Translations under genes and position numbers: made by a program
The notes under the pieces: generated by a model
Seen by the model: the letters and a program-made list of their open reading frames with translations, nothing else
Database searches by the model: none
What the model was told of the DNA's origin: nothing
Source of the DNA: Candidatus Eiseniibacteriota bacterium
GTDB lineage: Bacteria > JAFGKV01
Assembly (NCBI GenBank): GCA_025453925.1
Contig: JALOPK010000176.1
Span: forward strand, 1-6,861
Length of the DNA stretch: 6,861 nucleotides
Reading direction: 5' to 3'
Shown here: positions 3-827 of the stretch, one piece after another
Layout: each line of letters opens with the position of its first letter
Numbering within the stretch: the first letter of the stretch is position 1

Positions 3-185
3 TTGGAAAAGGAACTTGGAAGCCCTGTTGTCCTTCTGAAGGAATGGCGCAAGACGTGGGCACGCCTTTACGTGGAAAAACAAGAAGGCAAGATGACGGA
101 CGACTTGAGAGACTGGGCAGTTGATACCATGCTCAAGATGATTCAACTCCTTCAGCCGGAACTGGACAAGATCAGGAAGAGCTAA
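3..185 (+). CDS. Hypothetical protein, probably the ORF of an integron gene cassette (5' end uncertain)
   Basis: Sixty codons are open from the left edge to a TAA at 183-185. The first possible start is a TTG at position 3, but the true start may lie outside the window, so the gene should be treated as 5'-partial. I do not recognise the family. The product is charged, has no signal peptide or membrane segment, and is likely mostly helical, with a C-terminal half rich in Leu, Ile, Lys and Asp/Glu. The stop codon lies inside the left R arm of an attC-like site (180-249), which is the usual arrangement of a gene cassette, where the ORF ends at or within its own attC. Its base composition looks less GC-rich than the core genes to the right, which fits acquired DNA. 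That it is translated is inferred from context; no ribosome-binding site can be judged this close to the edge. Confidence 0.5.
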   Translation: MEKELGSPVVLLKEWRKTWARLYVEKQEGKMTDDLRDWAVDTMLKMIQLLQPELDKIRKS

Positions 186-249
186 CAAGAGCGTGGAAGG
201 TATCGCGTTACGCTACGCTCCACACGAACCTTCACGCTCGCCGTTAGCC
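180..249 (+). other. attC: Integron attC recombination site
   Basis: The two ends pair as an imperfect long palindrome with the layout of an attC site. The left R arm GCTAAC (181-186) pairs with the right R arm GTTAGC (243-248), which contains the invariant GTT. Next comes an unpaired spacer (AA at 187-188 against GCC at 240-242). L arm GAGCGTG (189-195) pairs with CACGCTC (233-239). A single unpaired G at 196 sits in the left L arm, where extrahelical bases are expected. AAGGT (197-201) then pairs with ACCTT (228-232). The remaining 26 bases (202-227) form the variable terminal loop. The span of about 70 bp is within the usual attC range. Both R arms depart from the RYYYAAC/GTTRRRY consensus at one matching position, so pairing is kept. 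Crossover would fall between G243 and T244. The orientation agrees with the upstream ORF on the plus strand. The only reservation is that no integrase or second attC is visible here. Confidence 0.85.
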
Positions 250-275: not shown

Positions 276-827
276 GTGGGAGAAACAGCGGATCCCCGCA
301 TTCAGATAAGGCCTTTCGCGGACCGCCGCGACTGCGAGCGTATGGTAGACTATTTCCTGAACGCGGACAAGGCGTTTCTGGAGGGAATGGGAGTCGACCC
401 GGGCAAGTTGCCGCCGCGAAGAGAGTGGATCGAGTCGGCCCTGCTTGACCTCGAACGCCCTGCTCACGAAAAGGACAGATACTATCTGGCATGGATCTAC
501 GATGGCACTCCCGTGGGACATGCAAGCATCAACAGGATCAAGGTTGGTGAGGAAGCGTTCATCCACTTGCATCTTTGGGTGAAAGACCTTCGGAAAGCAG
601 GACTGGGCACCCAGTTCTTTGCGGCCTCGGCGGTAGAGTTCATGCGCGCGTTCCGGCTCAAGCGTCTCTTCTGCGAGCCCTACGCGGAGAACCCGGCACC
701 GAATCGAGTTGTCTTGAAGGCTGGCTTTCGCTTCGTCAAGAGGTACCGGACAACCCCGGGCCCTCTGAACTTCGAGCAGGACGTGAATCAGTACGTGCGA
801 GAGAATCCGGAAGCCCTTGCCGGCTAG
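276..827 (+). CDS. GNAT-family N-acetyltransferase
   Basis: This 183-residue protein has the size and signatures of a single-domain GCN5-related acetyltransferase, which transfers an acetyl group from acetyl-CoA to an amine. After an N-terminal beta strand (IQIRPFADRRDCERMVDYF), the acetyl-CoA motif A covers about residues 98-126, with the pyrophosphate-binding loop R-K-A-G-L-G at 106-111. Motif B (about 131-159) carries the typical Asn followed by VLKAGF, as in RimJ/RimL-like enzymes. The substrate cannot be told from sequence. The start is a GTG four bases after GGAGG (267-271). It lies 32 bases beyond the predicted attC crossover, so the gene is likely the ORF of a second integron cassette. 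GNAT enzymes are among the commonest cassette products. No attC follows the stop, so the cassette may have lost its distal end or may never have been one. No promoter was recognised; read-through from upstream is possible. Confidence 0.85.
   Translation: MGETADPRIQIRPFADRRDCERMVDYFLNADKAFLEGMGVDPGKLPPRREWIESALLDLERPAHEKDRYYLAWIYDGTPVGHASINRIKVGEEAFIHLHLWVKDLRKAGLGTQFFAASAVEFMRAFRLKRLFCEPYAENPAPNRVVLKAGFRFVKRYRTTPGPLNFEQDVNQYVRENPEALAG

Follow-up and report, generated by a model that had tools for sequence, protein, structure and literature searches.

An inverted repeat close to the left end of a metagenomic contig raises the question of whether a recombination site for integron gene cassettes (attC) occurs in a bacterium outside the Proteobacteria usually associated with such sites and, if so, whether it belongs to a cassette array or is a solitary remnant. 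The window (6,861 nucleotides) is the entire contig C188 of a metagenome-assembled genome (MAG; G000, 3.9 Mb in 502 contigs, 82% complete, 2.9% estimated contamination). In the collection searched, the phylum consists of three genomes only, namely the host's own, one from the same genus (G001) and one from the same family (G002), which supports a host outside the usual Proteobacteria, as an earlier note made from the letters of the window had supposed. The site is probably a genuine attC, situated where a cassette array, truncated by the end of the contig, borders the chromosome on its downstream side.

Anatomy of the attC site

The earlier note had placed an attC site at 180–249, and all of the parts that it named were found there (Table 1), including complementary R arms with AAC and GTT, an unpaired spacer, an extrahelical G in the left L arm, a variable loop and a small ORF that stops inside the left R arm. 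The seven-base L arm that it described is present in the sequence (GAGCGTG, 189–195, and CACGCTC, 233–239), but the GAG/CTC pairs occupy positions that usually belong to the unpaired spacer. A second extrahelical base, A202, had been missed. One more pair, at T201, lies between L'' and this second bulge, beyond which there are six further pairs, five of them Watson-Crick and one a G.T that is present on the bottom strand only.

Taken from the bottom strand, the pair of bulges has the form T-N5/6-C, and C242 becomes the G that adjoins AAC, as in most attC. The central spacer on this strand is asymmetric, with GGC opposite TT (one of these is paired in the minimum-energy fold), and the pairing of 3 bp of spacer leaves it shorter than in a typical attC. 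Sites of the T-N6-G and T-N6-C types are those best excised by IntI1 (PMC3053210), and a G-to-C change at the first bulge on the bottom strand is only mildly harmful, with a 2.7-fold cost in the Vibrio cholerae repeat (VCR; PMC2727003). Using 18 cassette sites from class 1 integron plasmids as the reference, the window site had exactly the register of the most frequent type (5 nt, 3 bp, one extra base, 5 bp and 6 nt). Of the features by which an attC is assigned, the following were found at the site: R boxes with AAC/GTT, an L box of ~8 bp with an extrahelical base on the R''-L'' arm, a second bulge (T on the bottom strand) ~6 nt from the first, an asymmetric unpaired spacer and recognition by a covariance model.

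Table 1. Coordinates of the parts of the attC site and of its flanking genes in the window
Feature	Position	Strand	Observation
Upstream cassette gene, 3' end	3–185	+	ORF of at least 60 aa, runs off contig; TAA at 183–185 inside R''
R'' box, AGCTAAC	180–186	+	6/7 pair with R'; A180/C249 mismatched; invariant AAC present
Left spacer, AAGAG	187–191	+	5 nt, as in known attC; AA alone unpaired, GAG pairs with CTC at 237–239
L'' box: CGT, extrahelical G (195 or 196), five paired bases	192–200	+	8/8 L pairs, canonical register
Second extrahelical base, A (T on the folded bottom strand)	202	+	Fold
Upper stem (203–208 / 222–227) and variable terminal loop	203–227	+	Fold
L' box, ACCTTCACG	228–236	+	Pairs with L''
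Right spacer, CTCGCC, with GCC unpaired	237–242	+	Register comparison
R' box, GTTAGCC	243–249	+	Seven bases identical to R' after the catB8 cassette
GNAT N-acetyltransferase gene	276–827	+	PF13302, 39 bits; start 27 nt after R'

Chance expectation and strand polarity of the fold

Simulation from the dinucleotide content of the window (696 Mb, both strands included) yielded 14 sites in which, with the register kept fixed, 8/8 L pairs and at least 6/7 R pairs were present, a chance expectation of ~0.02 per Mb or ~0.08 per 3.9 Mb genome. The second bulge with its six further pairs has a probability of ~0.0045, giving a joint expectation of ~4e-4 per genome, though both rates are lower bounds because real genomes hold more inverted repeats. 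The fold was stronger on the bottom strand (180–249; −19.9 kcal/mol, z = −4.48, a value that no shuffle out of 200 reached) than on the top strand (−16.9 kcal/mol, z = −3.90), and with flanks of ~10 nt (170–260) the values weakened to z = −2.66 and −1.27, respectively.

Recognition by covariance models

A covariance model trained on 17 class 1 sites (R1) did not report the attC at 180–249 in the window; its matches included clustered sites in G003, an unrelated genome, as well as in the relatives. The L box of the window site is unrelated in sequence to those of class 1, so that a class-1-trained model misses it. As R1 was too narrow, it was replaced by a broader model (R2) built from 41 R1 matches, with the window site absent from training. 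A covariance search had been proposed as a check in the earlier note, and R2 ranked the site first in the window, with 18.6 bits on the forward strand and 6.4 bits on the reverse (next best match, 7.1 bits), while sites of the relatives likewise outside the training set scored 20.9–27.7 bits. No match at E ≤ 10 was obtained from R2 in 135 kb of other sequence from the three genomes. The score of the window site corresponds to E of ~2 over the whole genome and is alone not significant genome-wide. A genome-wide R2 search of the host assembly, in which 150 of 3,417 candidates were scored, returned no match and missed even the window site, and is therefore no evidence of absence. A search of Rfam at the gathering threshold had no match. 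What makes the case for an attC is the combined weight of the register, the two bulges, the placement of the genes and the lineage. Class-1-trained models, then, can miss attC sites of this sort.

Genes around the site and the conserved chromosome

From comM (1235) rightwards, the contig is colinear with both relatives at 66–76% DNA identity, with comM, bactofilin, acyltransferase and MBL-fold genes in shared order, and comM is 86% identical to the same-genus copy. The alignment to both relatives ends at the end of comM (1239–1241), and the region to the left is absent altogether from G001 and G002; the attC therefore sits in lineage-specific DNA adjoining conserved chromosome. The comM match of G001 (contig C279, L012) has one in-frame TGA, which may belong to a 5' extension of the query and not to comM itself. 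Just downstream of comM there is a palindromic tandem repeat, ATATAGGACACGTC(C/T), at 1184–1221, and a truncated remnant of a gene for a four-helix-bundle (23S rRNA intervening sequence) protein lies between the GNAT gene and comM (834–983).

The left part of the window has the arrangement of a gene cassette, one gene followed by an attC with the stop codon in R'', the 5' part of the gene being off the contig. This left ORF matched no Pfam or NCBIfam family above the cut-off. Both it and the GNAT gene are absent from the two relatives, and neither matched a plasmid cassette. The nearest homologues found for the GNAT gene were from Bacteroidetes (44–47%), with no attC near them. The GC content is 0.50 in the left ORF and 0.585 in the GNAT gene, compared to 0.63–0.67 in the chromosomal genes to the right, and the GC3 of the GNAT gene is 0.71 compared to 0.75–0.86 in its neighbours. 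No attC was found after the GNAT gene, which is a candidate for either the next cassette or the first gene beyond the array.

Integron components in the host assembly

No exact or motif copies of the site were found in the host's own genome, where it is single-copy. The pattern AACAA...GTTRG had 68 matches, fewer than the 102 of a reversed control pattern, and the ~40 of them filtered by pairing included no second attC with full anatomy, nor was one recognised among the rest, which were assessed by eye. The earlier note had seen no integrase in the window, and the host assembly likewise showed no IntI over the TIGR02249 cut-off, only Xer-like recombinases. Three contigs were rejected as sources of an IntI, all below this cut-off: C450, with an XerD-like C-terminus at the contig edge, and C159 and C88, with XerC/D-like proteins. 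The formal definition of an integron, or of a cluster of attC sites lacking an integrase (CALIN), calls for two attC within 4 kb or an intI gene (PMC9668308), and for CALIN elements at least two attC have also been used (PMC9024848); with one attC of the AACAA...GTTRG pattern and no IntI, the host assembly falls outside the formal definition. The absence of further attC or IntI is weak, given that no more than 179 bp of contig precede the site and that the MAG is 82% complete.

Integron components in related genomes

Integron parts were recovered from both relatives. In G002, contig C184 (L040, 1818–12643) has several attC on one strand, mostly with GAAC-type R boxes, and its genes, a NUDIX gene among them, begin shortly behind one site and terminate within the next. 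Two of the attC sites on this contig enclose restriction-like genes, which by eye resemble HsdS/HsdR. In G001, five attC occur singly on five contigs, 0.65–2.3 kb from the contig ends, and on C230, C22, C130 and C183 the site is accompanied by a gene that ends at it or begins after it. The gene-attC-gene layout of the window thus recurs on G002:C184 and on these four contigs of G001. Most sites of the relatives differ from the window attC in the R core (GAAC) and in the L box (CAGCGGAC type), so that it is no close sequence relative of theirs.

Pieces of the integrase were also identified. A C-terminus of IntI (63 aa) runs off G002:C125 (L056, 5276–5464), and the organism may possess the full intI; the best PDB match of this C-terminal piece is IntI4 (2a3v, 91 bits compared to 55 for the next). 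On G001:C130 (L057, 82–1582), an intI piece, an alpha/beta hydrolase gene and an attC (1521–1582) all lie in the same direction; here the IntI C-terminus (~51 aa) is interrupted N-terminally within the contig. The pieces from G001 and G002 score 97 and 119 bits against TIGR02249, compared to 64 and 78 bits against the best Xer model. The G001:C130 locus thus represents, in the genus of the host, an in-line integron that has degraded, in the atypical same-direction layout of intI and cassettes known from Treponema (PMC3607928). A GTTATGC near position 381 of L057 is a possible attI point. With attC next to cassette genes and IntI remnants in the relatives, integrons are part of this lineage. 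In a genome from another family (G003), four attC occur in 6 kb on C39 (L044, 535–4541), with sites also on C17, C2, C72, C73 and C53.

Interpretation of the locus

A cassette at this position would have the following history. The integron-captured gene ending at 185 would carry the attC as its 3' recombination site, and replication, conjugation or supercoiling would expose the bottom strand, which could then fold as a hairpin. IntI would be expected to bind the R and L boxes, with strand and orientation given by the two extrahelical bases, and, by analogy with known sites, the crossover would fall between G243 and T244, where a cut by IntI would join the site to attI or to another attC. The site would be predicted to be active in recombination. 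The window would then read as a cassette, its attC, a GNAT gene that probably also arrived as a cassette and either lost its attC or never had one, and ordinary chromosome from comM onwards, with the array extending leftwards of the site and its remainder, along with any integrase, beyond the left end of the contig or lost.

Repeated cassette arrays break assembly in drafts, according to the authors of IntegronFinder (PMC9024848), and the sites near contig ends (0.65–2.3 kb in G001, 0.18 kb in the window) suggest the edge of an array rather than a solitary fossil, for which decay of integrons in the genus would have left single sites, with neither array nor integrase in the genome. Such a fossil is conceivable, if rather unlikely: the host genome yielded a single site without any IntI, the IntI of the same genus breaks off N-terminally inside its contig and the G001 attC sit singly, but the window site is fully paired with no visible erosion, the G001 and window sites lie near contig ends, as expected if arrays break assembly, and G002 has several sites on one contig. 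The earlier note was correct about the object and for the most part about its setting, for which it had offered either a cluster of attC lacking an integrase or the edge of a sedentary chromosomal integron. These two options are not fully separable, since no more than 179 bp of contig lie to the left of the attC and any array is off the contig.

A chance or unrelated palindrome resembling attC (a terminator, a REP-type element or a transposon end) is very improbable. Perfect inverted repeats are common, another short one occurs in the window at 1184–1221 and the simulation, made without the biological inverted repeats of real genomes, bounds the chance rate from below; against this, the site has no T run, its single copy in the genome speaks against a REP family, the full anatomy in the fixed attC register has a chance rate well under one per genome, the stop codon lies in R'' and the relatives have integron parts. 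Proteobacterial integron sequence mis-binned into the MAG is more improbable still. The assembly is fragmented and has some estimated contamination (2.9%), but a contaminant contig is contradicted by the synteny of comM, bactofilin, acyltransferase and MBL-fold genes with both relatives at 66–76% DNA identity, and the comM identity and shared gene order place the contig in the lineage and speak against a binning error, while a chimeric join between 249 and 1235 is conceivable.

With an attC at the chromosomal edge of an array as the preferred reading, a more speculative and doubtful extension is that the chromosomal integrons of the phylum are resident but decaying, their integrases truncated and intact single attC cassettes scattered but usable via outside integrases. 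The attC reported here is a known gene-capture system in another host, not a new type of system, and it is not put forward as a first discovery. With it, the known hosts of integron cassettes come to include a bacterial phylum that is little sampled, and the three species, which have respectively an attC at the edge of the chromosome, a broken intI and an array, would let the gain and loss of integrons outside the Proteobacteria be traced.

Comparison with known systems

The site shares with class 1 attC (aadA, catB8, cmlA5 and others) the register of the R and L boxes, the spacer lengths, the first extrahelical base before AAG, a second extrahelical base 5–6 nt further on and, as after catB8, the R' box GTTAGCC, but differs in having C rather than G as the extrahelical base on the bottom strand and in three paired spacer positions. 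CALIN elements, common in MAGs, likewise consist of attC without a visible intI and with cassette-like genes on both sides, whereas the window shows one site only. The chromosomal context is common to sedentary chromosomal integrons outside the Proteobacteria, such as that of Treponema (PMC3607928), though IntI is fragmentary in the relatives of the host and was not seen in its own genome. The spacer of the V. cholerae VCR is also partly paired, with 3 unpaired and 2 paired positions compared to 2–3 unpaired and 3 paired here (PMC2727003), while the window site has a much shorter terminal structure and two extrahelical bases rather than the three of the VCR.
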